From Sorghum bicolor (taxonomy: Eukaryota > Streptophyta > Magnoliopsida > Poales > Poaceae): 64,000 nt of DNA. Below the pieces are notes generated by a model. It did no database searches, was not told the origin of the DNA, and saw nothing but the letters and a program-made list of their open reading frames with translations. This document shows positions 3,356 through 51,281 of this stretch, piece by piece (within the stretch, counting starts at the first letter, position 1; every line of letters starts with the position of its first letter). The position numbers and the translations under genes were made by a program. The stretch is from assembly GCF_000003195.3 (NCBI RefSeq), contig NC_012874.2, positions 61,695,768 to 61,759,767 of the forward strand, written 5' to 3'.

Positions 3356-3363
<8 letters not shown>

Positions 3364-3420: not shown

Positions 3421-3422
<2 letters not shown>

Positions 3423-19198: not shown

Positions 19199-19200
19199 AT

Positions 19201-19212: not shown

Positions 19213-19252
19213 GCCTAGTGCTCATTATTTAGGCTTCACCGCCTAGAGAAAG

Positions 19253-24069: not shown

Positions 24070-24123
24070 CATCTTTTGGCACGCCCAGTGGGACCAGATT
24101 CAAGATTCAAGGTCAAGATCAAC

Positions 24124-26825: not shown

Positions 26826-28201
26826 AGTTGTGTGTTGAATTTGTAAATAGTTTTTGTTTTGCATATCATGCATACCAAAACTAAAATACAAAAAGAATTG
26901 TGTGTAGGGCTTGTCTAACATGGTTAAGATAACCCCCTTTGTGTGTGTGAAAAAGCTTATCCTTGGATCAAACTTGACAAGCATTAGTTTACTTTCAAGT
27001 ATTGCATTTCACCTCATATCTTATGCATGCTTGTTAGTTGACCGTTTCTTTTTTATTATGCTTTGAGCATCCGCTGTGTTCGTCCATAGATAGGGGGAGC
27101 ATTCAAAGCTCACCATGATTTAAACCCCTAGCTTTATGGCCACACGATGCTCCTCGGTGCTTTCACTTGACTATTTTCATAAAAACTACTATGCCTAAGG
27201 CTAAATATTTGTGAAAATTTGAGTGTTTGAGAGAGGTCACTCATACCAGTTCCACTTGGTGTTTATTTGGATCCTCTTGAAGTTGGAACTTGGTTGGGTG
27301 AAAGTCGGGCGAAGTTCTAAGTTGAAAAAGGAGCCAGAAGTGCACCGGACGCTGCACTGGACGCTACCTCTGTGCGTCCGGTGTGGTGAGTGTGCTGGAC
27401 AGCACTCACCGGACGCAGGAATAGTGTCCCTGTTCCATCCGGTGAGGTGCGTCTGGTGCTCAGCTAGGCAAGCCCTAGGGCACCGGACGCTAAGGCCAGC
27501 GTCTGGTGGCCATCGTCTGGTGCTCGGCCGAATTAAAACACTCTCTGTGTTTTAGTCCGGTGGTCATCGGATGTGTCCGGTGCCACATAAATAGCGTCTC
27601 GTGACCCCGCAGCGAGCCCATATAACTCGCGCCTGGACGCTCTCGTCGGCCGGTTTCTTTCCTCTCCTCCCTATTCCGCCAGCAGTCGTGCCCTAGCCCA
27701 AGTCGCCGAGAACTCTGTCGCCAGTGGTTTGACTGTTTTCCGGTGACTTCGTGATCTCCTCCTCACGCAGATCTGCCACAAGGACATCTCCCCCATCCTT
27801 TCCTCACGCAGTGGCCCTCATCTCGCGAAGTTCTAGGGTTTGGGGTGAGCTTCCTTATCTACGCACTCAAGGTGTTCGAATTTATGTGTCAATGGATTAG
27901 AACGAGGTTTTTGACCTCGATTTGCTCCGTTTCATCTGTGCAGCACCTTGAGGAGTCGATTCGTGTTCTCCGACGGATTTCGATCGCGATATTTCATCCA
28001 GAACGCGTCTCGACATCGGATTGTAAGCCGTTCGCGCCCAGTCCTTATCTGTTCTTGCGATCCATAGGGTTTTCTCACCTCTAGCTATTATGTTTGCTTA
28101 TATATATCCTATCTATTCCATCTCTTGCAGCGCGTTGATATCCCTTGGCAATTTGTCAGTCGCTCAGTTGTCGGCAGTCATTCAGATGCAGTTTTCTTGC
28201 A
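26826..28201 (+). other. Sirevirus pol-to-env spacer with polypurine tract and LTR-like motif cluster
   Basis: TAGGGGGAGCATTCAAAG near 27091 is an extra polypurine tract of the kind repeated in Sireviruses. From 27340 to 27600 there is a cluster of CACCGGACGCT/GCGTCCGGTG words like that in the LTR. No other coding match was seen up to the env-like ATG. Confidence 0.6.
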
Positions 28202-30096
28202 ATGGCACGTTGCAAGAATGTCAATGGTCAGGCAGCCAGCTCAAGGGGTTCTCCAGGAGGTGATGGTGGAGGTGATCCTCCCCGTCGCCTGTCAGCGGCA
28301 GAGAAGGGTAAAGGCAAGAAACTAGCCACCAAGAAGAGGAAGGCCAGTGACAGAGAGGCAGAGGTGGCCGAGGCAGTTGCAGCAGCAGCTGAGGCAGCAG
28401 AGAGGGGAGGACGTTCAGGTGCCCTGAGGATTGGGGCCGATCTCACGCCACTGCAGAGGCGTGCAGTTCTTGAGGCTGAGGCCCTTCATGGGTCTCCTCC
28501 TAGCACCATCATGCTAGGAGGTCAATGTGTCAGGATTGCAGTCAGAGAGCCAGCTCAGGAGGACCCAGAGACTGAGACCGAGGCAGAGGCCCAGGCAGAG
28601 GACCCAATAGAGGCACAGCAGCAGGAGCAGCCTCTCAGGAGGTCGACTCGCGCTCGTACTTAGGCCATCCCTATGACGCTCTTTCCCAGGAGAGGCTACA
28701 GAGACGGCTTCACCAGGATTCAGCAGTGGTTGGTAGCCCATCTGATCTCGAAGACGCCATTTGACTTGTGGGATATGATAGTCTCAGAGATCGAGGATAC
28801 TATTTCAGAGAGCTTCAGGGGTCGGTGTCAGTTGTCGTACGCACACTGGATCACCATGCTCATTCTTCATGCTAGGCCAGAGCCTCTTCCAGCTCACCTC
28901 CAGAGAGAGCTATCAGATGCTGACACAGTGTTCCCTCACTATGACCCCTGGCAGATGCTGAGAGCGCATCACGACCTTAGAGCTCCACCACCTCCTCATG
29001 CACCACGTGACCAGGTGCCACCACCTTCTCCTAGGGGCACTCGCAGTTCAGGAGTAGACCAAAGACTGAGGAGGAGCAGGATATCGCCATTGGGGCGTTT
29101 GCAGACGATGAGGCTGAGGAGGACTTTGACTTTGCTTCAGACAGCTCAGACGATGATTATCGTCTTCTAGTGCCAGACCTTCCTCCGAGGCTGCACGACC
29201 ACAAGGCAAGAGGTTCCTCGAGTGCTTCAGACCCCGCTTTACTTGCTATCCTAGAGGGGATGAGAGCCGATCAGCAGCGGGCAGCTGAGGAGCAGGCCAG
29301 GAGAGACAGGGACCAGGCTGCCATCAATGCAGCCATGCAGGCTAGGTAGGACGAGCTTTAGAGAGAGCTTCTGACCTTCCAGGAGCAGCAGCTTGCGTTC
29401 CAGGCTCAGCAGACGGTGATGATGGCCGCTCTTATGGCCGCCTCAGGGATTCAGCTTCCTCAGGTACAACTCCCAGGCACTTCATCAGTCAGGCCTCCTA
29501 AACCAGCGCCTCAGAGTCAGTCTCAACCACCGCTTTAGCTCCCTGCTCAGAGTCAGCCATTATCGACGCCTCAGCACCAGGTTTCTCAGGGTGCCATCTC
29601 GTCTGGTTTTGAGAAGGTGCCTCAGTTCACACCTCTACGCTCTGGTTTTACACCTCAGTCAACGACAGCGTCACAGCTCGTGTTGGACTCATCGGCAGGC
29701 CAGCACATCAGTTTCTCTTACAGTGCTCTGACTGGTGACCCTACTCCTCCACCTCTGCAGGCTCCTACAGCCTTTACGGTCCCAGTCACCACTACTGAGC
29801 GCCTGTCATCGTCAGTAGCTTCGTCTCAGCAGCTAGCACCTTCCTCTACTATGCCAGAGACGTCAGCTACAGCGACAGAGTCCGTGCCAGCTTCGTCAGC
29901 AGGACTTGAGCAGCCAACACAGCCCGTGACAGCTACAGAGCCTGCAGAGCCGACCCAGACCGCTTCTCCAGCACGTGCAGCTTTAGAGGGTCACTCTATC
30001 TCCTCCGAATCGACGGCCGATGGATCAGACGACGCAGCACATTTTCAGGCTATGCCGAGGGACTCCACTGCTCTGCCTCCGCCTCCTTCGTCTTAG
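28202..30096 (+). pseudogene. Sirevirus env-like third gene
   Basis: The frame starts MARCKNVNGQ at 28202. The N-terminus is basic (KGKGKKLATKKRKASDR), followed by an Ala/Glu-rich coil, an acidic repeat (ETETEAEAQAEDP), a conserved-looking core (FTRIQQWLVAHLISKTPFDL, YAHWITMLILHA), a Gln/Ala coil (about 29250-29400) and a Ser/Thr/Pro-rich tail to TAG near 30094. TAG at 28661 and stops near 29348, 29359 and 29537 break it, with at least one frame change near 29050. Sireviruses often carry such an extra gene after pol; its role is unknown. No clear signal peptide or membrane helix is visible in this copy, so 'env-like' is a positional name. Confidence 0.7.
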
Positions 30097-30545
30097 GTTT
30101 TTGGCACTTGATGCTAAAGGGGGAGAGAGTTGAGAGTATGAGAGTTAGGGGGAGCTAGAGCTAGAGAGGGCAACCTTTTGATTATTTTGTGTGCTACTCC
30201 ATGCATCATGTTTACGTTTATGCATTGCATTTTTGTGAGATACTCTTGTGAGATACACTTATGGTTGTGCTTATGGTTGTGAGACATGACTTATGCTTAT
30301 CTGTGATATCCTTATGTCATGTGGTTTGCTCATATTACTTTGCTTCCGCGTTTTTACTCCGATGTACTATGAGCCATCTGTGGTTATATCTTGTTGTATA
30401 CATCTCACATATTTGGATGCAGGATGTTAGACTTGGTTGATATAAGCATGCTTAATCCCTTTGCTCTTATTGTATCATGCTTACTGAAACCAAGTCATTT
30501 GAAAACCTCATTTCCTTTCATACTCGAGGTTATTGTCATCAATCA

Positions 30546-30561
30546 CCAAAAAGGGGGAGAT
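30546..30561 (+). promoter_or_regulatory. polypurine tract of Sirevirus
   Basis: CCAAAAAGGGGGAGAT immediately precedes the TG of the 3' LTR and would prime plus-strand DNA synthesis. Related GGGGGAGA words occur at 30119 and 30148. 30097-30545 is otherwise untranslated. Confidence 0.85.
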
Positions 30562-31351
30562 TGAAAGAGCATCTAGGCCCCTAATGATTTCGGTGATTAA
30601 TGACAATGTTGATTACTATGACTAACATGTGTTTTGCAGAGGCAAAGTCATTAGTGAGGTCATGGTAATAGGTACTTGATGAACAGGGACGTACATGCCT
30701 ACTTAATAGTGGAAATCGTTTCGGTTTTCAAAGGATGGATGGACATCGTCAAGACTAGACTAGGTCTGGGTGCCATATGGTGAAGAAGGGCACTTAGAGT
30801 AGTCTAGGACTTTATTTTCCTTTGACCGTACTATTAAGAGGGGCTTTGATCTAGTAGCTTGATTTAGGCAAGGCTTTAGGTTTAGGTGTGGTGCACACTT
30901 GGTAAACCTAGCACTAGGCAGCTCAGAGATAGTCCTTAGATCGAGAGGAACCAACTTCGTTTTGGAACGGTCGCGTTTCGACGAGGTTAGGGTGCCTAAG
31001 TAGGCACCGGACGCTATGTGAGTGCGTCCGGTGAGGTCTTTAGCCGTTGGAGGGCTTTGGTGCCTAGGGTTAGGCACTGGACGCTGGCACCGGACTCACC
31101 GGGCAGCGTCCGGTCCCATACCCAGGGAGGTTGTAATCCTGCCCCTAGCACCGGACGCACCGGGTAGCGTCCGGTCTTAAACTCAGGGAGCTTGTAAATC
31201 TCCCCGAAGCACCAGACGGTGCCACCGGACGCTGGGAAGTAGCGTCCGGTGACCTGTCAGACGTAGGTACAGTTAGCCGTTGAGTGTCACCAGACGCTCA
31301 GTGCAGAGCGTCCGGTGCAACATCAACAGCGTCCGGTGACCCCGTTTTCAG
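30562..31351 (+). repeat. Sirevirus 3' LTR, truncated (790 of ~1541 bp)
   Basis: It matches 17658-18472 and then stops in GACCCCGTTTTCAG. The next bases belong to a different element. It still carries the first half of the CACCGGACGC cluster. Confidence 0.92.
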
Positions 31352-31479
31352 CGTCCATATCGACGTAGCGGTGGAAACGATCGACGAGACGCAGGACGCC
31401 GTTGCTGGCGGTCGAGCCCGTGCGGCAAGAAAGGACCCTAGGACTCCTATGAATGACGGACAGGTCGACCCCCTCCACA

Positions 31480-33112
31480 AGAAGACAAAGCCGCGCAACT
31501 TGCGCAACTGCGAGAGCTCAAGACAAAACTCGACGAAGACCGTGAGCGCCTCGTCCTGCTCGAACAAATCCTTGAGCAGGACCTACCATACCCACCTGGC
31601 AGAAGTGTCCGCAGAAGGGCTCGAGAGGTGCATCGACATATTGTTTGGGACGGGGAACCAGAACAACCTTTCAGCCGCTTCCCTCGAGGAGGCCAGAACG
31701 TCGTGGCGGCAACGATGCTGCTGTGTAACATGCCCGAGCCCTCGAACTCCCAAGCACAGCGCATTCGAGACGAGGTGCAAACTCTACTCCAAGTGGCGGC
31801 AGTTCAGCAAGCCGAGAGCTCGGCCTCTCGATGTCGAGGAACTGCCACAGAAAAGCGTGAGGAACCAGCCCAGAATGACAAGGAGGTGTCGGTCCATCAG
31901 CAACCGCCCCCTCGAGGGAAGAAGACAGCGCTTGTCCTCCACCACCCCGTCGACAACCAACGGCGACATGACGCACGACGTGACATCGATGAAAATCGTC
32001 GACGTCGGTATGGGGATGCAGAAGAGCATGGTTACAGCGCCCACCGCGGCGGGAGATACGACAGCGACGAGGACCGGATGGCCCCGGAACCAGCGGGGCC
32101 TCGAGTGTTCAGCAGAGCAATCCGCAGCACGCCGCTGCCCAGCCTGTTTCGACCCCCGACCAGCATAGCCAAATACAACGGCGAGACCAAGCCAGAGCTG
32201 TGGCTGGCAGACTTCAGGTTAGCCTGTCAGCTAGGAGGCGCTCGAGGGGACGATCGAGCCATCATCCGCCAGTTACCGCTTTTTCTCTCCGACACCGCCC
32301 GTAGATGGCTCGAGGAGCTCCTGGCCAATCAGATCCATGACTGGACCGACTTGGTCAGAGTATTCGAGGGCAACTTCAAAGGGACCTACATACGGCCTGG
32401 TAATTCATCGGACCTCAGCAAGTGCAAGCAGAAGTCAGGAGAAACTCTTCGAGAGTACGCTCGACGCTTCTCGAAGCAGCGCACCGAACTGCCGCACATC
32501 CCTGACCACGACGTCATACAGGCCTTCGTCTCAGGCACCACCAGCCGAGATCTGGTGCGGGAGTTAGGCTGGAATCATCCTCAGACCGTCGACAAGCTGA
32601 TGGATGTGGCAAACTACACCGCAGGGGAAAAAGCGGTCGGTGCCTTCTTCAGCCATGAAGGAGAAAAAAGCAAGTCGCCTGCCGACGACGACGAGGGTCC
32701 CAGTCGAGGGCCCTAGAAGAACAAGAAAAAGAAGAAAGCACGACCGTTCCAACAGGAAGCCCTTGACGACAATCTCGTCGCCGCCATGGAACGCAAGAGG
32801 CCTCGAGGACCTCCAGAGGGAGCCATCTTCGACAAAATTCTAAAGGAGCCCTGCCCTTATCATAAAGGAGGGGCAAATCACAAGCTCGAAGACTGTCGTA
32901 TGTTGAAGAAGCACTTCGATGGCCTAGGGTTCAAGAAGGACGACCAGAAGAAAGAGAAAAATGGCGACAAGAGTGACGACAAAGACGACAAAGGTTTCCC
33001 TGCCGTCCACGACTGCTACATGATCTACGGTGGGCCCTCGACGCAGCTGACCGCAAGGCAATGCAAGAGGGAACGTCGTGAGGTCTTCGCGGCAAGAATG
33101 GCGGTGCCCTAG
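31480..33112 (+). pseudogene. Tat gypsy gag
   Basis: The coil QLRELKTKLDEDRERLVLLE is followed by the gypsy gag core: PPTSIAKYNGETKPELWLAD, LPLFLSDTARRWLEEL, FEGNFKGTYIRPGNSSDL, KSGETLREYARRF. A zinc-knuckle-like CPYHKGGANHKLEDC lies near 32851. TAG codons at 32714 and 33110 interrupt the same frame. The true start is lost upstream. Gag forms the particle around the RNA. Confidence 0.88.
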
Positions 33113-33124
33113 TACCTCAGCTGG

Positions 33125-36100
33125 TTGAGCACCCCCATCACCTTCGATCGAGATGACCACCCCGACAAGGTAGTCGCCCCTTCCGTATACCCGCTCGTCG
33201 TCGACCCCATCATCGTCAACACCAGGCTCTCGAAGGTATTGATGGACGGCGGCAGCAGCCTAAACATCATCTACCTCGAGACCCTCGACCTCCTCGGCAT
33301 CAATAGGATGCAGCTCCAACCAAGCGCCGGTGGTTTCCATGGTGTCGTACCTGGAAAGAATGCGTTACCGGTAGGTCGAATCGACCTACCGGTCTGCTTC
33401 GGCACGGCGGCCAACTTCAGAAAGGAGACCCTCACCTTTGAGGTGGTGGGATTCCGAGGAACGTACCATGCCATCATAGACGCCTGGGTTACGCCAAGTT
33501 CATGGCTATCCCCAACTACACCTACTTGAAGCTGAAGATGCCAGGACCCAAGGGCGTCATCATCGTCAGCTCTTCCTACGAGCATGCGTACGAGTGCGAC
33601 GTCGAATGCGTCGAGTATGGGGAAGCCGTCGAGAGCTCCACCGAGCTCGCCTCGAAACTCGAGGCCCTAGCCGCGGAAGCCCCAGAGCCCAAACGCCACG
33701 CCGGCAGCTTCGAACCGGTGGAAGGAACAAAGAAGATCCCGCTCGACCCCGACAACTCCGACGGCAAGGTGCTGACGATCGGCGCTGACCTCGACCCCAA
33801 ATAGGAAGACGTGCTCGTCGACTTTCTCCGTGCAAATGCTGACATGTTTTCATGGAGTCCTTCGGACATGCCAGGCATACCGAGGGAAGTCGCCGAGCAC
33901 ACCTTGGAAATTCGAGCCGGTTCCAAGCCAGTGAAGCAGCGGCTGCGTTGCTTCGACGAGGAGAAGCACAAGATCATTGGCGAGGAAATCCACAAGCTTT
34001 TGACGGCCAGATTCATCAAGGAGGTTCACCATCCCGACTGGTTAGCAAATCCTATACTAGTTAAGAAAAAGAATGGGAAAATGAGGATGTGTGTCGATTA
34101 TATGAGTTTAAATAAAGCATGTCCAAAAGTTCCTTTTCCTTTGCCACGTATCGATCAGATTGTTGATTCTACTGTGGGATGTGAAACCCTTTCTTTCCTT
34201 GATGCATATTCTGGTTACCCTCAAATAAAAATGAAAGAGTCCGATCAGCTCGCGACATCTTTCATCACACCTTTTGCGATGTATTGTTATGTAACCATGC
34301 CGTTCGGGCTTCGAAACGCGGAAGCCACATATCAGCGTTGCATGCTCCACATGTTTGGCAAACACATAGGGTCAACAGCCGAGGCATACGTTGATGACAT
34401 CATCGTCAAGACAAAGCAACGAGGAGACCTGATTTAGGACCTCGAGATCGCTTTCACTTGCCTACGCGCCAACAAGGTCAAGCTCAATCCCGAGAAGTGC
34501 GTCTTTGGTGTCCCCCGAGGCATGCTCCTGGGATACATAGTCTCCCGACGCGGCATCGAGGCCAATCCCGAGAAAGTCTCAGCCATCACGAGAATGGGGC
34601 CGATCCGAGACGTCAAAGGAGTGCAAAAGGTCACGGGATGTTTGGCGGCGCTAAGTCGTTTCATCTCGAGGTTGGGGGAAAAGGCATTGCCACTATATCG
34701 GCTCTTGAAAAAAGCTGAGCGCTTCTCTTGGACCCCCGAGGCCGAGGAAGCCCTCGATAACTTGAAGAAAACACTGACCTCTGCGCCGGTCCTGGTCCCG
34801 CCTCAACCCGCAGAACCTCTGCTTCTATACGTTGCCTCGACGACCCAGGTCGTCAGTGCAGCAGTGGTAGTCGAGAGGCAGGAAGAGCGGCATGCGCTGC
34901 CAGTTCAGAGACCGGTCTATTTCGTCAGCGAGGTACTCTCGGAGACCAAAGCGCGGTACCCACAGATCCAAAAGCTAATCTACGCGGTGATCCTCGCCCG
35001 ACGCAAGCTGCAGCACTACATCCTCGGTCACCCTATCACGGTGGTCTCATCCTTCCCCTTGGGTGAGGTCATCCAGAGCCGGGAGGCAACAGGAAGAATT
35101 GCCAAATGGTCGATCGAGCTCATGAGTGAGACCCTCACTTATGCGCCTCGTAAAGCTATCAAGTCTCAAGCTCTGGTGGATTTCGTCGCGGAATGGACGG
35201 ACTCCCAGCTCCCCCCGGCTGAAGTTCAGGCAGAATTGTGGACGATGTATTTTGACGGATCCCTCATGAAGACGGGAGCTGGTGCGGGTCTGCTATTTAT
35301 CTCACCGCTCGGTGTCCATATAAGATACGTCATCAGAATACACTTCGCCGCATCCAACAACGTCGCGGAATACGAGGCCCTTGTCAACGGTTTAAAGATC
35401 ACCATCGAGCTAGGGGTTCGACGCCTCGGCGTTCGAGGCGACTCCCAATTCGTCATCGACCAAGTGATGAAGGCCTCCAACTGCCACGACCCAAAAATGG
35501 AGGCATACTGCAAGGAGGTACGCCGACTCGAGGACAAGTTCCATGGTCTCGAGCTCGTCCACGTCGCCCGACGCTACAACGAGGCGGCCGACGAACTCGC
35601 CAAGATCGCCTCGACTCGAGGCACGGTCCCGCCCAACGCATTCTCAAGAGATCTTCACGAGCCATCCGTCGACTTGGGCTCGGGGGCTGACGTCGGAGCC
35701 ACCGCCCCCCAACAAACCGACACCATCGAGGCACTGCTAGCGGCGGCGGAGGTAATGGAGGCAGAACAGCGACCCGGTCGGCCGTTCGACTAGCGCACGT
35801 CGTTCCTCGACTGCCTAAAACGTTGCGAGCTACCGGAAGATCGATCCGAGGCCCGTCGTATCGCTCGACGGGCCAAATCATTCGTAATCTACGGCAAAGG
35901 CAATGAGCTATATCGACGAAGCTAGACAGGGATCTTGCAGCGCTGCATCACCATAGAGGAAGGCCGAAAGCTCCTCGAGGATCTGCACTCGGGGGCTTGT
36001 GGCCACCATGCTGCTCCACGGACCCTCGTAGGGAAAGCTTTCCGATAGGGCTTCTACTGGCCAACGGCCGTAGCTGACGCCATCGAGCTCGTACGCTCGT

Positions 36101-37032
36101 GCCATGGGTGTCAATTTTATGCCAAGCAGACGCACCTTCCCGCCCACGCTCTTCAGATGATTCCCATCACATGGCCGTTCGCGGTGTGGGGACTCGACCT
36201 GGTAGGGCCTCTACAGAAGGCAGTAGGAGGCTACACCCATCTGTTGGTGGCCATCGACAAATTCTCCAAGTGGATCGAGGCTCGACCCATCACGAACATT
36301 CGCTCCCAGCAAGCCGTACTTTTCTTCACCGACATCATCCACCGGTTTGGGATCCCCAACATCATCATCACCGACAACGGCACTCAATTCACTGGCAAGA
36401 AGTTCTTAGACTTCTGCGACCGGCATCACATCCGTGTGAACTGTTCTGCGGTGGCCCACCCTCGAACAAACGGCCAAGTCAAGCGTGTCAACGGCATGAT
36501 TTTGCAGGGACTCAAACCGAGGATCTACAACCGCTTAAAAAAATGCGGCAAGAAATGGGTCGAAGAGCTCTCTTCGGTCCTATGGAGCATAAGGACGACG
36601 CCGAGCAGGGCCACAAAATACACCCCGTTCTTCATGGTCTACGGCTCCGAGGCCGTGCTCCCAACGGAACTCGAATACGGGTCCCCTCGACTCAAAGCAT
36701 ACAACGAGCAATCAAACAAGGAGGCTCGAGAGAATGTCGTCGACCAACTCGAGGAAGCTTGGGACATGGCCCTCCTCAACTCCGCCAGATACCAGCAGAA
36801 GCTTCGACACTATCACAACATGCACGTGTGCAAAAGAGACCTAAACTTGGGCGATCTTGTCCTACGGCGGCGGCAAAGCAACCAAGGACGCCACAAGCTA
36901 ACGCCACCCTGGGAAGGCCCATACATAGTGGCCGAGGTCCTGAAGCTAGGGACATACAAGCTAGCAGACGAAAAAGGGGCAATCTTCACCAACGCGTGGA
37001 ACATCGAACAGCTACGTCGATTCTACCCCTAG
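33125..37032 (+). pseudogene. Tat gypsy pol: protease, RT, RNase H, second RNase H, integrase
   Basis: Protease has the VLMDGGSSLNI motif (about 33239). A small frame change near 33490 follows. Reverse transcriptase has YMSLNKACPK and the catalytic YVDDIIVK (about 34387). RNase H begins near 34800, and a second RNase H has MYFDGSLMKTGAGAG and AEYEALVNGL. Integrase has the zinc-binding HSGACGHH...CHGCQ, the Asp in WGLDLVGP and the Asp in TDNGTQF, but the third catalytic residue is changed: the motif reads NGQVKRVNG where Glu is expected before Arg. Five TAG codons (33802, 34435, 35791, 35923, 36046) lie in one continuous frame up to the TAG at 37030. Confidence 0.92.
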
Positions 37033-37566
37033 AATTTCAAAAGCTTTATGTTCCTATGTACAATTTGTACCAAGGTTTTGTGAATGAATGCATGAATGAA
37101 TAAGATCTTTCCCTCGAGTAAATTACTTTTTTCATGAGTCAAAATCTCGACGATAGGAGGGAGTACCAACTATGACCCATCATAGTCGATACCCCCTCGG
37201 GGGCTAGCAGGGGGGCACCCCCCCCCAAGTGATTATTTTTTCGTTCCTACTAAGTAAACCTCGCATGATCGAGTAGTAGAGGTACCTCGAGCCCCTTAAG
37301 GGCCGAGAAACAACGAGCCTGAGAACTCCTACGCCCCCGGACTATGGTAACTCTACTCGCTTTCTCACCCTCGAGGCAATCGAGGTTGCCTTAACCAAAG
37401 ACAAAATGAGGAATATAGATGTAGGCAGAAAAGAAAATGAAGGAACCTCGAGTGGAAAGACAAACGTTTACAAATCTTATAACCCACTTAAAACACGATA
37501 TCATTTAAGATAGAATAACAAAGTACTGTACAAGGGGCCTCAGCACCCAGAGTAGGCTCGCAGGCC

Positions 37567-40500
37567 TCAGTCTACGTCTTGGCCCTCACCACCATCGTCC
37601 GCACCCGAGCTAGTCTCGGGAGGAAGTACTTCCGGCTCGAAAAGCCTCACCAACCTTTCCCCAGGAGCCTCCGCATCGTCGATCAAGGCGTGGAGCCTCT
37701 CCTCGTTCTCTGCGTCGGTCTTGGAAATATCGATGACGAAGCCGTGGGACACCACCTCCATATCATAGGAAAAGCCTGAGCAGACAACCGCCATTGCCCG
37801 CTTTACCCCAGTATGAAGGGCGTCCCGCACCCGGTCCCTCAGCGTAGCACCTAGATAGCATAGCTGGTCGACCAGTGCGTCACCTCGAGCCTCCTCCCTC
37901 GACTCGTCCATGGGCTCGAGCTCCCAAGAGGCTGAAAGATCATTTATCGCCGTCTGCAGTCGACGGTTCAAAGGGACCTCCCCCTCAAGTTGAGCCTTGG
38001 CAGAGCGGGCCACGACCTGAGCTGCGAGCAGCTCATCCTTAAGCCCTACAAGGACCAACAAGGAAAAATTAGATACCACAAAACACACCCTAGAAAGAAA
38101 ACTCAACAATAGGAAATGTACCGCGAATGCTCTCCTCCAGAGCTGTATTCTCGCCGACCAACTTGGTGTTGGCTCTCTCGATCTCTGCGTTGGAGCGCAC
38201 CAGCTCGGTGTTGGCGACGCGCAGGTCTTCGATCACCTTACCGGCCTGCGCGATGGCCCCATCCTTCTCCAGCAGCGCTCTCTTCAAATGGTCAACGTCG
38301 TCAGAGAGACTTCGGGATCGAGCCCGCTCCGCCTCGAGATCCTCGAGAGCCTTCTTCTTGGCCTCCTCCGCGGCGCTCCGGGCAATCTCGCCATTTACGC
38401 ACTCCACCTTCATCCTTTGGAAGGATTCTCGGACAGAGGCGAGACCAGTCTTGAGGGTGCCCTTCTCCTTGTCCAGAGCAGCGGCCACATTCCTGTAAGA
38501 CAAGGCCTCCTCCCGAGCCTTGGATGCGACCTCCTCAACCATCATAGTTCGCTCCCTTAGCAGCGCAGCCTCATCCACCGCCTTCCTCGAGGCCTCTCGA
38601 GCCTCGGCCAGAGCAGCCTCCCTCACCTTCTTCTCCTCCTCGAGCGCCAACAGCTCCTTGTAAGCCTTGAGGAGCTTTTCCTGCGATTCCAGGAGTTGAT
38701 CCTTGAGGAGAGGGAGTTGCTCCCAGCCGCCCCTTGTTGCATGGATGAAGCTCAATTTGATGCGGGAGGTCTCTTTCAGGTCCTGCAAGCCAGCGATTGG
38801 GCAGTTAGAATACAAAACCAAATGTTCTACAAGGGTTAAGGCCTAAAAATGCTTACGAAGTAGGCTGGTCCGAGCCCGTTGTTGACGACGTCGGACAGGA
38901 GCCCCACCACATGCTTCATCCAGAGGCGAAGCTCCTCGACATGCTCCCACTTTTCGGCCTCCTTCCGATCGTCCAAGAAAATGTTTGGCTCAGACGGATC
39001 GGTGGATGCCCAAATGCGGATCCGGTCAGGGCACCAGTTCTCCATCTCCTGGTCAGCGCGCGCCTTGACGCCCCGGATGAGCTCCTCGACGGTCTCGAGC
39101 GACCCCCCGTGGCGCAGGAACAGGTCGACGAGGGAGGGGAACCGCCCGTCGTCATCCACCGTCTTCCAGGTCCCGGTCGCGCTGCCACCACCGCCGCCCG
39201 ACGTTCCGATCTCGTCTTCCTCGGCGGGGATACGGTCCTCCCACGACCGACGCTCCCGGAGGAATCCCGGAGTGATTCCGTCCATGCCGTAGATCGTGCC
39301 CCTGATCTCGGACTGAGGGTCGACGAGGGTGCGCATCATACAGGCGAGCGCCACCACGCCGTCCGCCCGCCTCGGCTCAGCTGGGATCGAAGCAGGCGCC
39401 CCCGGACGAAGCCACGCCGGGGTCGGAGGACCATAAACCGGCAGGCTCTCCCCCTTATTTCCAGGCTCTTGCGGCGCTGGTGGCGCTGGTTGGGGCGGAC
39501 CGAGAGAGGGAGGCTCGAGCAGTTCCTCTAACTGCTGGCCCCTTAGTTGCAGCTGCTCTTGGAGCTCCCTCAGCTCCTGCTGCCGGTCCTGCACCAGCAG
39601 CTCCTCGAGCTGGAGACCTTGTGGCAGCCGCCCCTCCTCTCCTTCTTTCTACTGCGGCCGCTGCTCCTCTTGCAGCTGTTGCCGCGTCTCCAGCTCGCGC
39701 TCCTCTTCCTCCTTCTTTCTCTGCTCCTCGACGGAGCGAAGCCCGACAGGCCAGGGCATCCGCATAGCGATGAGAGAAGTCTCGGCCTCCTCGTCCATAG
39801 GGCGGGCGTCCTTCGAAGGCCCGTCGCCGCCGGACCCGTCGCTTATTGTGATAGGGTCCCCCTCGACCCCAGATCGGGGAGGCTCGGGGGCTCCCTCTTG
39901 CTCTTGGGGGCGAGGCGCCTCGACCCGCCTCGGCGACGGCGGAATGGACTCCCCTACCAAGGGGCGAGGCGGGGCATCCTCGACACCAGTCGACGGCCAG
40001 GGATCGGGGGAACCTGTAATACATTCAGAGGCAAGAGGTCAGCCATCATAATCGACGTAAAGACAACCCAGCTCCCATAAGTGACGGAAATAAACTGCTA
40101 ACCTGATTCTTTGGAGGCCGCTCCCGCCTTAAGCCTCTTGGCCATCGAAGGCTGGGCCTGCTCGAGCGTCCGCTTCAACCTGAGGAAAGAAGAACGAGTG
40201 TGAGAGAGGCCAAAACGTTGAAGACATAGGAAGATGAGAATCGTAACGTCGAAAACCTTACCCCACAGCGAGAACGGCCTGCCAGCCGGTGCCTCGACCG
40301 ACAGGCCTCGAACCGCCCCGTGCCAAGGCACCAGGCACCTCACGAGCAGGCGCAGGCCTCGGCTCGGCATCTCCCGCCTGGCGGGCGCCAGGGCTAGCAC
40401 TCCTGTGACTTGCTTCCCCCTTGCCGAAGGCCACGGCACGGCCACGGGTCAATGGCCCCGTCGCCAGGGGCTTAGCCCGGTCGCCCGCCTTTGACGTAGG

Positions 40501-41960
40501 GGGAGGTTGGGGGCACGGGACAGACCGACCTCGCGCAGGCGCGGGAGGGGTATCAGCGTGGGAGCGGCGAGGGGACGACTCCCTCTACCACCTCTCGAGA
40601 GACCCGCTTGGCCCCTCCTTTGGTGCATCCGTCCGCGGGACGTCGACGTCGGCTCGAGGCGGACCCTCGAGAATTCTGTCCAGACGGGACGCCATCCCCT
40701 CGGAGTCGTCGCTGTTGTCGTCACCATCACCGCCGTCATCCTCATCAGGGGAGTCTTCCTCAGGCTCCCCCCTCTGTCTGGATTTCGCTCGGCGCGTCTC
40801 CAGCGCTTGGCGCTCGAGATTCTTCTTTTTCTCCTTCTTCTTCTTTAAGTCCATTGCGGACTTCTGCTTTTCAGTGGACTCTCACCGCTTGTCATGGTCG
40901 ACCTCGTCCTCCTTTACCGGAGGCCTCGAAGACCGAACATCGATTCAACCCTGTGCAAATGGTGACGAGTTTTAAGGAGGATCGAAGAAATTCTGGAATC
41001 AAAACCATAAGCGAGAGAGGAGCTTACTAGGTCGATCGATCCCCTGTCAGGCCTCATAGGGAAGCCGTTGACATGCTCTAGCTTGAAGTCGCCAGCAACG
41101 GTCGCCCTGACTCGAGCCGCGACCTCGTCGTCCGCCAGAGCCTTGTTGGACATCCGGCAAGCCTCGAGATCCCGGGACGAAACGCCGGGACCCATCTCGT
41201 CCATTCTCAACGGCCGAGACATCAACGGAAGAACCCTCCGATGATGGACCGCCGAGAGGACAAGAGTGGCTGTCAGGCCATCCTCGCGTAGCTTCTTCAA
41301 GGCGTCAAGGAGGGGGGCGAGCCGCAATTGGTGGACTTGAACCACACCGTAAGTCCAGTGGTCCGGGCGCTTCGAGATCAAGCGACCGGTGTAGGCAGGG
41401 AGGAGGTCGTCGTTGTTGCGCAAATAGAACCACTGGGAGTCCCATCCGGCATGGTTCGACGTCAATCCCACCGGGATGTACTCGCGCGGCCTCTCCGTTT
41501 TGCCGGTCTTCAACACCAAGTTGAGGCACCCGGCCCGTACGAGTTTCCTCATGCCTGTGGTTCCAGTAGGGGCGTTGAAGAGCTCGTCGCGGTACAGATG
41601 GAGCCACAGATCCCAGTGGGGCATCATCCCCAGATAGCCTTCACACACCGCGGCAAAGACCGCCGCGGCAGTGACGGCGTTTGGGGAGAAGTGCTAGAGC
41701 TCCACCCCGTAGTGGTGGCAGAGCGCCCGCATGAAGCGACTCAGAGGAGTGCCCAGGCCGTGGCGATGGAATTTGGCGAAGGAAACCACGTAGCCCTTGG
41801 GCGGCCTTGGCTCCCGGTGGTCCACCGCCGGCGCAATCCACTCCAGCCGCGACGACGACGTGCGGGGGCGTAGGAATCCCTCCCTCTCAAGCTCCAACAG
41901 CCGACGCTCCATCATCGACGATGGGCACCAGTCATCGGCGGCGATGAGTCTCACAGGCAT
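37567..41960 (-). pseudogene. six-exon antisense gene inside the Tat element (Transposase_28-like plus coiled coil)
   Basis: Exons on the minus strand are 41960-41028, 40950-40262, 40179-40103, 40013-38857, 38782-38122 and 38045-37567. The introns are 77, 82, 89, 74 and 76 bp, all GT-AG (donors GTAAGC, GTAAGG, GTTAGC, GTAAGC, GTACAT; acceptors CACAG, CTCAG, TACAG, TGCAG, TGTAG). The exons total 3996 bp, 1332 codons, with every junction phase agreeing. Exon 1 starts MPVRLIAADDW and has GYVVSFAKFHRHGLGTPLSR, CEGYLGMMPHWDLWLHLYRD and WDSQWFYLRNNDDLLP, the pattern of the 'putative gypsy type transposon' family. Exon 2 ends in basic/acidic low complexity, exon 4 has Gln/Glu repeats, exon 5 is a coiled coil. 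In-frame stops: TAG 41694-41696, TGA 40945-40947, TGA 40882-40884, TAG 40585-40587 and TAG 39649-39651. Function unknown. Confidence 0.82.
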
Positions 41961-42086
41961 TTTCGGGTGAAAGAAAGGCGAACTCGCTACTACTCGAGGG
42001 TGCGCGTGTGTGAAAGATAGCGAGGAAGTTGGGACAGGGACAAAGGCAGAAGGCGGAAGGAGCGACGGCAATGAGACCGCGGCGCA

Positions 42087-42092
42087 TTTATA
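42087..42092 (-). promoter_or_regulatory. TATA box of the antisense gene
   Basis: TATAAA on the minus strand, within GTCTATAAATGCGCC, lies about 130 bp upstream of the first ATG at 41960. No other ATG occurs on that strand between a start site expected near 42060 and 41960. 42144-42869 holds no other feature that I recognise. Confidence 0.55.
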
Positions 42093-42869
42093 GACGGCAG
42101 CCCACCAACGGACAGATCCGATAAGCACGGTAACTCCTCCCATAAATGCGCCGTCTAACGGTCCTCACCTCTCTCACAGATGGGACGCTACGAATTCCGC
42201 GCCGGTTCATTACAGCAACGGCTCCCACCCAACGGGCGAAAAGGCGAACCGCCACGGCCCCTTCCTTCCCTCGTAAGCCAAGGTAGGCGTCTGTCACAAC
42301 TAAAACCTCGAGAGGTCACGGGCTGGCCCACCAACTGGGTTCGACAGCCGATCTCGAGTGCCAGAGTCAGGGATGCCCAGCGAATGGTCAAAAATCAAGG
42401 CCCGCCTCGAGAACTCGCTGGGGATGTCCAAGGTAGGATTGAGACGGTCGAGAGGAATCCCCCCGAAGGGAGGCATCGAGCCGCTGGACTCTATCGAACG
42501 AGACCAGTAACCCCGACCACGTCGACCCTGCTTTATGAGGATGCCTCTGGGCTACAGCCGACCCCCTCGAACGGGGCACAGGTCCTCACTTGGATTACCC
42601 GTTAGGAACTCAAACCGGGATAGATGACGCTCGCTCCATCGGGAGTACGTCGAAACCCCTGCGCAAAACATACCGATCAAAGCCGTTCACAGCGGACATT
42701 GAGAGCGCTTCCACAGATTAGGCAATATAACCCTCGAAGGAGTCAAAAAACTCCTCCAAGGGCTCGGGGGCTACCCTCGCGGGGTCGCTCGCGTGCCCCC
42801 ACGGAAACTCGACCTTAAAATGTAGCCTCCACTCAAGCGCAAGCGCTCGAATGGAGACTCGGGGCCTAC

Positions 42870-43921
42870 TGTCGAGGATATCAGTAAGGGGTACCCTAAC
42901 TGATATGCATATCGAGAACATCCGTACACAAGTCGAGGCCTCCAACTCGATGCCCTGCCTAGTCATACGCACAGTCCTCGACGACTGTGGCCTCGAACAC
43001 GGACATAGCGTCCTGCGAATCGACCGAGGCTCGAGCGCCGGCTGCCGTCGAATACGGAAGTAGGCTCGTACGAACCGGAAGGCCTCGAGCGCAAGGACAC
43101 CGCCCGCCGCCTGACGCGAGCGCAGGGATCAGAGGCATTTAATGCGCCTGTAGTGTTCTCACCTAACCCGACAGTCACGGGAAGCGTGATAGGAGGCCAG
43201 CACCCGTCCTGTCGTCCCTTCTGCAGCTTTCCCCACTAAACTAGCCAGAGCGTGGCAGAGTACAGAGGGCGAGTCGAGACGTCCGGTCACGACCCCCCTC
43301 GAGATGCCTGAAGTCAACGCTCTGGACCGTGAACCGTTACCTGGCACCTGACCCTCAAGTAGACATGTTCCTTTCCCAGAAAGGATTGGGCGACGACTGA
43401 CGGCGCCCCAACCACTCCGACGTAGCTGCTACCGCGACGTACAAGCATGCGACGCATAAGTCAGTCCAGGACGGCGCACAGGAGCAGGATTCAGGGGCAC
43501 GCGTAATCATCATCAAAGTAGCAAGACAAGACGGCTCGAGGCCACGCCGGTACGGAGGCCTCGAGTAGGTCAGCGCGCCATACCTCTTTCGATCCCTACT
43601 CTGACGCCTATACATGTACCCTGGGCTTCTCCTTGGAACTATAAAAGGGGAGGTCCGGGAGCGAGCAAAGACACGCGACACAACACAAGTCATACGCAGT
43701 AGAGCAACTCACCTTATCTCCATTCATACCACGCTTGTATTCGCCCCTGTACAGGCACTTAGGTGCAGGATAATACAATTTCCTCCCCCAGCTGGACGTA
43801 GGGCCTTCTCTTGCCCGAACCAGGATAAATCTTTGTGTCTTTCTGCATCACCATCTGGAAAAGGGAGCACGCACACAAGTTTTACTCGTTGGTGTGACCC
43901 CCCGGGGGGAAAACACCGACA
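42870..43921 (+). repeat. Tat gypsy 3' LTR (1052 bp)
   Basis: It starts TGTCGAGGATATCAG after a purine-rich ATGGAGACTCGGGGCCTAC and ends AAAACACCGACA, so TGTCG and CGACA form the terminal inverted repeat. TATAAAA at 43640-43646 is the probable promoter. No second copy is present in the window. Confidence 0.85.
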
Positions 43922-43925: not shown

Positions 43926-44590
43926 GAAAGCTAGCCATTGTAAATTGTGATTTATCGTATCAAAGAAATAGGTGAATTCATCTAAGGACGAGAAAAATGG
44001 CAATAGATCATACGTTGATTAGCATTCTATTTTGACTAAATATTATATCATTCATATGTTCTGAGACCATTTTATTAATATATGCACAGCCACATAAAGA
44101 TCCATCAAACCCATAATTTGTGTCCCCATAGAGAATTGAATATGATTTTAATTGTGCATGCATCAGCGCATTTTTTCCAAAAAATTCATAAATGATGTTA
44201 CATTATTTTAGAAGATATTTAGGAGAAAAAAGTCAAAACTTTAATAGCTGATGGACTATTAGAAGATACAAATGTCACACTGAGATAATTTCACTAACCA
44301 GTAGAAAAATGCCTCCTTGCTTTAGTACTGCTACCAAAAGTTCTTGTAATAGTAAAGGTTATGATCAGACAGGTGGCATTGGTCGTGGGTCTATTTGTTC
44401 ATCAGATTTTCAGATCACTAATCAGGGATGTAGCTCCTATAGCAAGGAAACAATATGGTCACACCACTTCTGCCACCCAGTGAGTAAAAAAATCTGTCTG
44501 GGCACAACAGATCAGTGGGTCACCATTGTCGAAAGCTAGCCATTGTAAATTGTGTTTTATCAAGGAAATATGTGAATTTATCTAAGGACA
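43926..44590 (+). repeat. ~60-bp direct repeat pair, 606 bp apart
   Basis: GAAAGCTAGCCATTGTAAAT occurs at 43927 and again at 44533. The match continues, with a short indel, through GTGAATTCATCTAAGGAC at about 43970 and GTGAATTTATCTAAGGAC at about 44570. The first copy begins right at the edge of the Tat LTR. Confidence 0.75.
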
Positions 44591-45628: not shown

Positions 45629-46026
45629 TGTTGGCGTAATCACTGGTGGCAGGGACTGTCAGCTGGGGCCAAACTGAAGAAGCGGGAAAGCTCAGAATTC
45701 AAATGGAGTCACTTGCAGTCAAGGCCAGCAGGGTGACCGTGCCCAGGGAGCGTGGGCGACGTCGTGCGCGGCGTCAGTTATCCAGTGTGAGTCTTTAGGC
45801 GTCGAGTGGAGTTAGTTTTTTTATTCTCTGTAGGGGGTGTGTTAAGTGACTGCGGTGAGTAGCACATTATCTGTAACCTCTATTTTGCACTGTTATTCTC
45901 TATCAGAGTAAAATAGCTCTGCCCTCCGACAGTTTTCGGGGTCAGGGTCCAAATTTCGTGTGTTCTTGTGTGTTCTTCGATCTAGCCAGTGAGAAATCTG
46001 TGTTTGTGATTGATCCTGAGTCTACA
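45629..46026 (+). repeat. copia 5' LTR (398 bp)
   Basis: It runs TGTTGGCGTAATC to GAGTCTACA. Confidence 0.96.
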
Positions 46027-46028
46027 CG

Positions 46029-46040
46029 TGGTATCAGAGC
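46029..46040 (+). promoter_or_regulatory. primer binding site (initiator tRNA-Met)
   Basis: TGGTATCAGAGC, a perfect match to the plant initiator-Met primer sequence, lies 2 bp after the LTR. Confidence 0.95.
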
Positions 46041-46090
46041 CGATCACAAGCCAGTGCGTTGAGTGCGTGCGTTGTATTGAGTTCATCGTG

Positions 46091-49000
46091 ATGGTGGAGA
46101 CCGGATCGAGTGGAGGTGCGGGTGGCGGCGGACATGGTGATCGCGGGACGTACCACTACCCGCAGTTGACGTCGACCAACTACACGAGCTGGAGCATCCG
46201 GGTTCAGGCCATCATGGAGGATCAAGGCATCTGGGAGGTGGTGGAACCTCCGGAAGGGACGACAACGGTGCAGACGGCGAAGCAGTCCGGCAAGGACAAG
46301 ACGGCGCGGGCACATTTGTTGTAGTGCCTTCCCGATGATCTGCTGATGCAGGTGGCGAAGAAGAAGACTGGAAAGGAGGTTTGGGAGTGCTTGAAGTCAA
46401 GATTTGTCGGTGCAGATCGTGTGCGTGACGCACGGTTGCAGACGCTCAAGAGCGAATTCGATGCTCTGAGGATGAGGGAGGACGAGTCGATCGATTCCTA
46501 TGCTGGGAAACTGACGGCCATGTCGGTGAGGTACAGCAATTTCGGGGGAACATTGGATGATGTGGCGTTGGTGAAGAAGATGTTTGACACCGTGCCGGAG
46601 AGGTTCATTCAAGTTATTGCCGGGATCGAACAGTTCTACGATCTCAAGAATTTGGTGTTCGAGGAAGCAGTTGGGCGTTTGAAGGCATTCGAAGAGAGAA
46701 TTCGGCCGAGAGCCGGGAAATCCTTGACAGATGAGAAGCAAGTCCTACTCACTCAGGCAGAGTGGGAGGAGAGACAGCGGAAGGCTGGTGGTGACTCGTC
46801 GGGAAGAGGAAGGTCATCGGAAGCTAGACGCGGAAGAGGCCGAGGCCGGGGGAGAGGCCAAGGCGGAGGTCGTGGCAACGGGCAAGACCGTGATGGAGGC
46901 AGTGAAGCTGGCAAGAAGGATAAAAGCCATATCAAATGTTTCAAATGCAAAGGGTATGGTCACTATGCCAACCGATGTCCGGGTGGTGAGAACAAAGAGG
47001 AGGCGGCACATCACGCGCGCGCTGAGATCGAGCGTACGCTGGGGTTGATGTATGCTGTCGCCAAGGTGGAGCAAGAAAAGGAGTCCAGGGAGCCAGTCCA
47101 GCAATGTCAGATTGGGAGGCGGGGAGCTGTGAATCTGACAGAGGAGAAGGTGAAGCCGGAGCTGCACTTGACCGGGGGAGGGGAATCCACCGGAGATAGC
47201 TGGTATCTGGACAACGGTGCTAGCAATCACATGACCGGCGACCCTGGCAAGTTCATGGAGCTAGATGGGGGAGTCACCGGGAATGTGAAGTTTGGAGATG
47301 GCGCGGCAGTGCAGATTGAAGGGAAGGGTTCCATCTTGTTCAAGTGCAGAGATGGTGCTCATTGGTTGCTCCGAGATGTCTACTACATCCCCAAGCTCAA
47401 GAGCAATTTGGTGAGCCTAGGTCAGCTCACTGAATTTGGCTGTAAGGTGGAGATGGATGATGATGTCCTCGAGGTGTTCGAGAAAAATCCCAGGAGACTG
47501 CTACTGAAAGTTCAGAGATCCTCAAACAAACTGTATCGAGTTGATCTGAAGCTTGCAGACTCTGAATGTTTGATGGGCAGTGTGGAGGAGCTAGAGTGGC
47601 TCTGGCATGGTCGGCTAGGCCATGTCAATTTCAGAACATTGAAAATGGTTGGGGACAGGGAGATGGTAGGAGGAGTGCCTGTGATCAGTCAGCCTGACAA
47701 GTTGTGTCATCCATGTCTGGCAGGGAAACAGACACGACAACCATTTCCAAAAGCCACAAATTTCAGAGCTCAGCAGGCATTGGAGGTGATCCATGTTGAT
47801 TTCTGTGGACCAATCACTCCATCAACAGTGGCTGGTAATAAGTATTTCATACTGTTTGTCGATGATCATACTAGATACATGCATGTTTATATGCTGAAGA
47901 GTAAGGATCAGGCCACTGCTGCATTAGTGAAGTATAAAGCTGAAGTAGAGAATGCAGTACAGAAAAAGATCAAGTGTATTCGTTCAGATCGTGGGGGGAG
48001 TTTCTGTCAGCAGCTTTTGCAGGGATATGTGAAGCAGCTGGGATCAGAAGACAACTCACTGTTCCATACACACCACAACAGAATGGTGTGGTGGAGAGAA
48101 GGAATAGAACTGTGGTTGAGATGGCTAGGACCATGATGAAGAGTATGAAAATTCCAGGGAGATACTGGGGAGAAGCAGTTAGGCATGTTGTCTATTTGTT
48201 GAATAGATTGCCTACAAGAGCTGTGTTGGAGAAAACACCATTTGAGATGTGGGTGGGAAGAAGACCACATCTGGGACACCGGAAGGTTTTTGGGTGTTTG
48301 GCTCACATGAAGGTGACTGTTCCTCATCTTAAAAAACTTTCAGATAGAAGTCAGAAGACAATCTATCTAGGTGTGGAAGAGGGCTCAAAGGCACATAGAC
48401 TACTTGATCCTCTGCAGAACAAGGTGTTGGTGAGCAGAGATGTGAAGTTTGAGGAAGATGTGTCATGGAGCTGGGAACAGGGAAATGTGAGGATGGAAGA
48501 GTTCTATGTGGAAGTAATGATACTGCAGTTCCTACAAATTTGGGGGAACCAAGTGGTGCAGGGGAGATGCCTGTAGAAGTAGGAGCAGAAGCAGTAGAAG
48601 AAGGTAGTGTTGGGGCTGGAGGTGATCATATGTAGTCAACACAGGGTGAAAACTCACCACAGCAAAGTGAAGCTTTGCCACACTCAGAGGGTTCAGGTGG
48701 TGTAACTGAACCTGCTTCAGCACAAGGCTCAGGTCTGATACAAAATTCACCAGAGGGATCAGGTGGGCAAGGGGATGATAGTTCAAATGAAGAACCAGGA
48801 AGATTCAGAGATCTGAATGACATCTATGATCACACTGATGTGGTTGAACTGCAGTATGATTCTGATGGTGAAGCTTTGTTAGCAGAACTTGAAGAGCCAG
48901 CAAAATATGTTGAGGCTGCTGGGAAGCCAGATTGGGAGGAAGCTATGGACAAAGAAATAGAGTCTATTGAGAAGAATGGAACTTGGGAATTGTCAAAGCT

Positions 49001-50422
49001 ACCAGCAGGGCAGAAAGCTATTGGTCTCAAGTGGGTATTTAAGCTGAAGAAGAATGCTGAAGGTGAAGTTGTAAAACATAAAGCTAGACTTGTAGCCAAG
49101 GGGTATGTTCAAAAGAAAGGTGTGGATTACGAGGAAGTGTTTGCTCCAGTAGCTAGAATTGATACTGTGAAGTTCATTTTAGCATTAGCAGCAAACAGGG
49201 GTTGGCAGATCCATCACTTGGATGTTAAGTCTGCATTTTTGCATGGAGTTTTGGAGGAAGAAGTGTATGTCCAACAACCTGAAGGTTATGTAGTAAAGGG
49301 AAAAGAGGATTATGTTCTCAGGTTGAACAAGGCATTATATGGCCTCAATGGAACATGAGACTTGACAGAAGTTTGAAGAAGCTTGGTTTCAAGAGATGTT
49401 TGAGTGAGCAGGCTGTTTACACAAGGGGGTCTGGGAAAGACAGTGTACTTCTTGGTGTGTATGTAGATGATCTCATTGTGACAGGAAATGATCCAACAGA
49501 GATTATCAAATTCAAACAGCAGATGACTGGGGAATTTGAGATGAGTGATCTTGGCCTTCTGTCCTATTACCTGGGAATAGAAGTAGATCAGAAGGATGAG
49601 TATCTGACTATAAAGCAGACTGGGTATGCCAAGAAAGTGTTAGAGCAATTTGGTATGGGGGAGTGCAATGCTACTAAGTATCCTATGGAACCTGGGTTGA
49701 AGTTGCATGAGGACAAGCAAGGAGAAAGAGTGGATGCAACAAACTACAGGAAAATGATAGGATGCTTAAGGTATCTGTTACATACCAGACCTGACTTGGC
49801 TTACTCAGTTGGAGTAGCAAGTAGATTCATGGAGAAGCCTACAGTGCTACATGTGAAGGCAGTAAAGCAGATACTGAGATATCTCAAGGGAACAACTGAA
49901 CTTGGGTTAGTGTATACCCAGGAGAGGAAGATGGAAGCAATCACTGGATTTTCACACAGTGATCATGGGGCTGATGTTGTTGGGAGAAAGAGCACAGGAG
50001 GGATGGCATTCAATCTGAATGATAGTCTGATCTCGTGGTGTTCTCAGAAACAGAAAACAGTGTCCCTTTCTTCCTGTGAATCTGAATTTATGGCTGCCAC
50101 TGCAGCAGCAAGACAAGCTCTATGGTTGAGGAACTTGTTGTCAGAAATAACAGGAAAGGAGCAACAGGTGGTGACCTTGTATGTTGACAACAATTCAGCC
50201 ATAGCACTCATGAAGAATCCTGTCTTTCATGGAAGAAGCAAGCACATTGATATAAAGTACCATTTTATCAGAGAATGTGTGGAGCGGGGACAGATAGCAG
50301 TGCGGAGGGTGTGTACTGATCTGCAGAAAGCAGATGCACTGACTAAGCCACTGTCAGCAATCAAGCTGGCAACCATGAGGCATTTGATGGGGGTTCGAGA
50401 TCTTAGCTCCCACCAGGATTAG
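46091..50422 (+). pseudogene. copia gag-pol polyprotein (disabled)
   Basis: Starts ATG 46091. Gag (YPQLTSTNYTSWSIRVQAIM) has a Gly/Arg-rich run and a CCHC knuckle CFKCKGYGHYANRC (about 46938). Then come protease (WYLDNGASNHMTGDP), GAG-pre-integrase (LWHGRLGHVNFRTL, CHPCLAGKQ), integrase (Asp in HVDFCGP, Asp in IRSDRGG, Glu in NGVVERRNR), reverse transcriptase (LDVKSAFLHG, YVDDLIVTG) and RNase H (VGRKSTGGMAFN, SCESEFMAA, RSKHIDIKYHFI), ending at TAG 50420. Lesions: TAG at 46322, a missing G in the G run at about 47991-47996, a frame change near 48500, TAG at 48633 and a loss of about 16 bp near 49350 that removes the conserved K-Q-A-P-R-A segment of reverse transcriptase. The RNase H entry motif reads GFSHSDHGAD, unusual for the family. 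Confidence 0.93.
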
Positions 50423-50431
50423 GGGGGAGAG

Positions 50432-50829
50432 TGTTGGCGTAATCACTGGTGGCAGGGACTGTCAGCTGGGGCCAAACTGAAGAAGCGAGAAAGCTCATAA
50501 TTCAAATGGAGTCAGTTGCAGTCAAGGCCAGCGGGGTGACCGTGCCCAGGGAGCGTGGGCGACGTCGTGCGCGGCGTCAGTTATCCAGTGTGAGTCTTTA
50601 GGCGTCGAGTGGAGTTAGTTTTTTTATTCTCTGTAGGGGGTGTGTTAAGTGACTGCGGTGAGCAGCACATTATCTGTAACCTCTATTTTGCACTGTTATT
50701 CTCTATCAGAGTAAAATAGCTCTGCCCTCCGACAGTTTTCGGGGTCAGGGTCCAAATTTCGTGTGTTCTTGTGTGTTCTTCGATCTAGCCAGTGAGAAAT
50801 CTGTGTTTGTGATTGATCCTGAGTCTACA
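50432..50829 (+). repeat. copia 3' LTR (398 bp)
   Basis: Same ends and length as the 5' copy, with five substitutions, four of them within the first 110 bp. Confidence 0.96.
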
Positions 50830-51281
50830 CTGCATTATTGAATACTGATACTGACCCTGCAGCGCTTCCTCCAGCATGCCTGTGTCGCGGGTGTCGACCT
50901 GGACAAACTCAGACCGGCTCCCAAGCTTAGCTGCAACGGACTCGCCTTTCTCTCTGGCAAATCAAACCAAATTGAACCAAGCACCACCTGTAAGTTGCAT
51001 AGATTCTGCATAGATTCAGCCTGAACACAAAAGGTCACTAACGAGGTGAGGTCCTACCAGTTCCTGCCTCCGATGAGAATGTCGAGGTCGGGGCGGAGCT
51101 CGGAGAGCGTGGTGGCCGTGGATCCCCCGACGCGTCCTGTGCTGCCTAGCACGAGCACGTGGGCAGTCCTCGAGGTCTTGCTCCTCCACTGGGCCTGGGT
51201 AGCCTCCCTGGAGCCGGAGGGAGCTGCCGTGGCGGGAGCTGGAGGCACGCATGCTCTGACGACGATGCCCATGGCGCCCAA

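Follow-up and report, generated by a model that had tools for sequence, protein, structure and literature searches.

The 64,000-nt window analyzed here (Sorghum bicolor, contig NC_012874.2, positions 61,695,768 to 61,759,767 of the forward strand) carries the remnant of a Tat (Ogre/Retand-type) long terminal repeat (LTR) retrotransposon at 31352–43921. Inside this remnant, on the minus strand and opposite to gag-pol, lies the pseudogene of a multi-exon gene with an N-terminal Transposase_28 (TRP28) domain. The coordinates, the five GT-AG introns of 74–89 bp, the 1332 codons, the TATAAA at 42087–42092 and the ATG at 41960 given in a preliminary description of the sequence were re-derived. The spliced minus-strand frame consists of six exons and 3996 nt with TGA at its end; all five introns run from GT to AG, and in each of them the acceptor AG is followed by G. 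Exon 1 (41028–41960) starts at the ATG and holds the Transposase_28 domain at about 41589–41786, and its reading agrees with relatives in other grasses. It is followed by intron 1 (40951–41027, 77 bp, phase 0), exon 2 (40262–40950), intron 2 (40180–40261, 82 bp), the 77-bp exon 3 (40103–40179), intron 3 (40014–40102, 89 bp), exon 4 (38857–40013), intron 4 (38783–38856, 74 bp), exon 5 with a predicted coiled coil (38122–38782) and intron 5 (38046–38121, 76 bp). Exon 6 (37567–38045) carries the final stop and keeps a C-terminal ALHTGVKRxxAVV stretch, as read from the exon and its relatives.

The TATAAA was found where the preliminary description had placed it, and the promoter of its own that was ascribed to the gene is plausible. 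Between 31352 and 43921, this motif occurs once per strand, at 43640 on the plus strand (in the LTR) and at 42092 on the minus strand, ahead of the antisense gene. A 126-nt leader without ATG separates the putative promoter from 41960, the first ATG downstream of it. This start agrees with that of the relatives, as residue 3 of P0003 aligns with query residue 4 and residue 10 of P0001 with query residue 11.

The gene had been called phase-perfect, and the phase arithmetic does add up; however, the reading frame is interrupted by five in-frame premature stops at codons 89, 313, 334, 433 and 688 (window positions 41696 in exon 1; 40947, 40884 and 40587 in exon 2; and 39651 in exon 4). An uninterrupted reading frame through all six exons was not found in this copy. 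Because of these five stops, no full-length protein can now be made from this locus, and the antisense gene here is a pseudogene. Internal stops in gag (two) and pol (five) amount to approximately 3.7 per 1000 codons, compared with 3.8 in the antisense gene. From these similar rates, we infer that the antisense frame and gag-pol were intact to a similar extent at the time this copy arose.

The spliced minus-strand frame is far from chance. It contains 6 stops including the final one, compared with 43 and 37 in the other two spliced frames and 14, 22 and 34 in the three frames read from the reverse complement of the spliced sequence. When the sequence was dinucleotide-shuffled (n = 500, best frame per exon), 23.0 ± 3.3 stops were obtained with a minimum of 13, versus the 5 premature stops observed. 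Moreover, a program that placed up to five GT-AG introns of 70–95 bp at any position so as to minimize stops reached 3 stops on the real minus strand, 10 in each of the three frames of the plus strand, and 18.0 ± 2.9 (lowest 10) on shuffled sequences (n = 100). The introns also differed from the exons in base composition, with GC contents of 36–44% and 59–66% and T contents of 36–53% and 13–21%, respectively; none of 3523 exonic 80-bp windows was as T-rich as any of the five introns. The preliminary description had considered that the frame might be a by-product of GC-rich sequence, in which case the GT-AG pairs would have been chosen by eye. GT-AG pairs do occur in any long sequence, and the plus strand of the same stretch holds seven open reading frames (ORFs) of 123–206 aa. 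However, neither the shuffled sequences nor the plus strand came near the real minus strand in stop counts, and proteins of other grasses match the antisense frame with E values down to 8.5e-71. By the stop statistics and these protein matches, the by-product explanation is effectively refuted and retains hardly any probability.

The relatives were collected by scoring the X-masked antisense protein against the 7988 best word-sharing candidates, which gave at least 9 related proteins from Digitaria exilis, Miscanthus floridulus and rice. With the first 345 residues as the query, 9 related proteins were obtained from D. exilis and M. floridulus, while a profile search gave at least 66, of which 54 were metagenome frames (P0016–P0069). 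Junction 1 was compared in 14 annotated plant proteins, a set outside which P0008 and P0009 lie. Nine of these proteins (P0001, P0002, P0004–P0007, P0010, P0012 and P0013) read straight across the junction with the pattern MRPxxGxxx(L/F)-G...PVP(E/K)D. In P0003 and P0014, exon 2 began at the same glycine after differing upstream sequence, and the pattern was not matched in P0011, P0015 and P0070. Among the metagenome frames, 45 of the 54 carried an insertion between the flanks of junction 1, the pattern being unmatched in the other nine. Counted up to the conserved block that follows, the insertion measured 30 residues in 44 frames and 31 in one; it began with Val-Ser in 43 of the 45, as GTnAGn would encode, and ended with Leu-Gln before exon 2 in 39, as a TGCAG acceptor would encode. 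These frames look like translated unspliced DNA. Disagreement of exon phases among homologues would have counted against the gene according to the preliminary description; at junction 1, position and phase of the intron were found to agree. As a separate observation, antisense frames of plant retrotransposons have been deposited in metagenome collections as 'hypothetical protein', most of those collected here with an apparent intron 1 translated.

In the case of intron 2, the evidence is indirect: 17 of the 54 metagenome frames share the end ...SG followed by a stop, as expected if translation of unspliced DNA is terminated by a phase-2 donor GG|GTAA, and the window's exon 2 read on into intron 2 gives the same end. 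The Miscanthus protein P0014 aligned over query residues 896–1323 (E 1e-19) and spans junctions 4 and 5. Judged from these protein alignments, the relatives suggest that the introns are real and shared. It is also conceivable that some or all five introns are left unspliced and that live relatives make several shorter antisense proteins from separate ORFs. The ORF-based survey in PMC11963269 presents them in this way, with 104 separate antisense ORFs, each at least 600 bp long, identified by ORF Finder, and intron 1 is read through stop-free in the 45 metagenome frames. In contrast, nine of the 14 annotated proteins drop exactly the intron 1 stretch and two others share the residue with which exon 2 starts; the window's intron 1 is 77 bp long, so that reading through it departs from the conserved frame; P0014 covers the two last junctions; and the introns are T-rich while the exons are GC-rich. 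Separate unspliced proteins are regarded as quite unlikely.

Divergence was determined in 37 of the 54 metagenome frames, after nine without the pattern, one with the other insert length, one short and six misaligned frames had been dropped. For the compared part of exon 1, the mean pairwise difference was 11.5% in the first half, where TRP28 lies, and 21.5% in the second; the intron 1 read-through gave 21.3% and the initial 60 residues of exon 2 gave 16.5%. These values point to constraint on the TRP28 part, the remaining exons not being set apart from the intron. They also bear on the possibility that the antisense transcript matters rather than its protein, the transcript pairing with genomic RNA and feeding small-RNA silencing or hindering reverse transcription, with the frame being secondary. 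A transcript-level role is proposed as a possibility in the consulted part of PMC7264820, antisense RNAs of LTR elements can form double-stranded RNA or lower retrotransposition according to the sections of PMC12786077 consulted, and transcription of the present copy might still take place, though not its full translation. However, a pure RNA role needs no frame, and the protein sequence is kept across the Digitaria, Miscanthus and metagenome relatives, with the TRP28 half of exon 1 being the least divergent. Transcript and protein roles could coexist, and the transcript-centered explanation appears unlikely.

The Transposase_28 domain named in the preliminary description was recovered by a Pfam profile match in exon 1. 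The match falls into two halves, one on each side of the first stop, with scores of 15.8 and 31.0 bits, respectively; the second alone passes the cut-off of 26.2 bits. No Pfam match above the cut-off was found in the two open pieces of exon 4. The C-terminal half of the relative P0001 was modeled as long helices with a predicted local distance difference test (pLDDT) score of mostly 70–85; the long C-terminal coiled coil described earlier is borne out on the model of this relative only. In the model of the relative P0028, the N-terminal part had a pLDDT of mostly 70–89. Exon 3 encodes KRTLEQAQPSMAKRLK (about 40128–40175), which we take to fit a bipartite nuclear-import signal as a prediction. 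The exon 3 segment, the modeled helices and the published statements on Grande and on TRP28 DNA binding jointly lend support to a nuclear, oligomeric regulator but do not prove it.

Judging by its domains, the host is a grass retrotransposon of the Tat/Retand type; this copy is dead and truncated at the 5' end, and its inferred left boundary abuts a copia LTR. On the plus strand, the gag frame (31457–33529, two internal stops) holds a gag domain at about 32276–32536 (Pfam Retrotrans_gag, E 2.3e-15). In the pol frame (33442–37032, five internal stops), Pfam matches on the open pieces placed reverse transcriptase at about 34060–34428, RNase H at about 34729–35125, a second RNase H (RVT_3) at about 35269–35607 and integrase at about 36175–36462. 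RT_RNaseH and RVT_3 follow each other in one open piece, with integrase downstream. In Ogre and Retand elements, the additional RNase H (aRH) is located between RNase H and integrase according to the part of Neumann 2019 (PMC6317226) consulted; the same domain order was found here, in agreement with the Tat element recognized previously. As in Retand, an antisense Transposase_28 ORF lies between pol and the 3' LTR, although the domain is split by a stop. The 3' LTR (42870–43921, 1052 bp, plus strand, TATAAA at 43640) was inferred from its TG...CA ends and the flanking sequence, no second LTR being used; a second copy was not found within the 64-kb window, where the 5' LTR is missing. The distance from the end of pol to the 3' LTR is 5837 bp. 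In the table of PMC11963269, the Saccharum spontaneum 1a cluster, with an LTR of 1,065 and a POL-3'LTR distance of 5,854, was the closest by size among the rows examined, size being no more than a hint of kinship.

Next to the remnant, a copia element at 17657–31351 has LTR copies 94% alike, the right-hand one seemingly cut short at the Tat remnant. No target-site duplication was found for this copia element, and it contains an internal 306-bp repeat (23764–24069 and 24972–25277, 97%). Directly to the right of the inferred 3' LTR, a 64-bp sequence at 43926–43989 recurs after about 600 bp, at 44531–44589 (86%).

The feature is probably a pseudogene of the lineage's antisense TRP28 accessory gene, which in live copies would be spliced, transcribed from its own promoter and translated into a nuclear regulator. 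Several findings weigh against this interpretation. Besides the five premature stops of the present copy, the rice relatives match about residues 56–249 only, which limits the evidence for shared introns to nearer grasses, and the annotated plant relatives are gene models. Intron 1 is in frame and stop-free in the metagenome frames, where it is possibly retained or coding, and its divergence does not exceed that of the second half of exon 1. Support for junctions 2 and 3 is weak, as the region is of low complexity and poorly alignable, with exon 3 sharing only a KR...LKxG pattern with Miscanthus. Finally, a fold search with the P0028 model for known DNA-binding domains gave no confident match.

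Under the preferred interpretation of a spliced accessory gene, live copies would transcribe the region between pol and the 3' LTR from its own promoter, opposite to gag-pol, and splicing would remove the five short introns. The protein encoded by the mRNA would be approximately 900–1,300 residues long and would combine a TRP28 domain at its N-terminus with a short signal for nuclear import, a long coiled coil and a C-terminal stretch that is conserved. This protein may enter the nucleus, form an oligomer on DNA or chromatin, and regulate the element's own transcription or integration, akin to the antisense HBZ of human T-cell leukemia virus type 1 (HTLV-1). HBZ of HTLV-1 is itself spliced. 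Retrotransposition would leave the introns in place, since the genomic RNA contains only their reverse complement, which is not recognized as an intron; this argument of the preliminary description is sound and agrees with the relatives at junction 1. Introns shared with relatives would suggest that the gene entered the element as DNA or as unspliced RNA rather than through a copied mature mRNA. A wider proposal is tentative, and we lean against it: grass Retand elements may be ambisense, with separate transcription units for a sense gag-pol and for a single large antisense gene with several introns, the antisense ORFs catalogued to date being its exons. Its introns would be retained because they go unseen in the genomic RNA. 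Splicing might itself be of benefit by marking the antisense mRNA for export and by sparing it the small-RNA silencing that affects the remainder of the element, which would provide an HBZ-like nuclear regulator even where the sense genes are silenced.

Elsewhere in the window, a second copia element at 45629–50830 has 399-bp LTRs that are 98.7% alike and copia gag/pol domains, and appears to be a rather young insertion. An Rfam MIR5387 hairpin was matched on both strands at 3836–3930, within a palindromic stretch at 3354–3958; we take MIR5387 to be a sorghum family, in agreement with the protein matches, which mark the window as grass DNA. Fragments of DNA-transposon proteins (Transposase_21 and DDE_Tnp_4) were found at 1347–2075 and 5683–6537 on the minus strand. 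On the minus strand, 52516–54438 is occupied by a long GC-rich frame (640 codons) that includes three tandem repeats of 126 bp, and a Pfam search of this frame gave no match.

An antisense TRP28 gene in such elements is known already, as are an own promoter and a nuclear protein in Grande. According to the available part of PMC11963269, antisense TRP28 ORFs occur in 97% of recently active Retand clusters from monocots and eudicots, and TRP28 is a domain of predicted DNA binding for which a regulatory role has been suggested. Because TRP28 ORFs are so widespread in these clusters, the recent, element-specific capture considered in the preliminary description does not fit. The five-intron structure is unmentioned in the open-access texts searched, with key primary papers outside them, and its priority is uncertain; the word 'intron' has zero occurrences in the texts of PMC11963269 and PMC7264820, the latter of which calls for the study of antisense and spliced transcripts. 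Should several TRP28 ORFs prove to be exons of a single spliced gene, the lengths and domain orders of the catalogued proteins would be in error, and the spliced form would be the one to use in cDNA, localization and loss-of-function studies.

Among the known systems, the Retand antisense TRP28 ORFs (Vicient 2025, the part of PMC11963269 consulted) are alike in being antisense, lying between pol and the 3' LTR and encoding Transposase_28. They differ in being separate ORFs from ORF Finder, whereas here they look like exons of a single gene in a broken copy. The gene23 of maize Grande, likened by description and not by sequence, is also an antisense accessory gene with antisense transcription from its own promoter and a nuclear protein, as given in the portion of PMC7264820 consulted. 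Plant LTR elements are generally intron-free, with Ogre and EVADE as notable exceptions according to the sections available of a 2025 review (PMC12786077); the introns of these two are functional and yield subgenomic RNAs by alternative splicing, while the five introns described here run antisense to gag-pol. Lastly, HTLV-1 HBZ, named in the consulted text of PMC11963269, resembles the present case in that a retroelement carries, at its 3' end, an antisense gene with a nuclear, regulatory product; the comparison concerns how it works, with no homology claimed. HBZ differs in being far smaller and in having its promoter in the 3' LTR (PMC7264820 for the HTLV LTR promoter).

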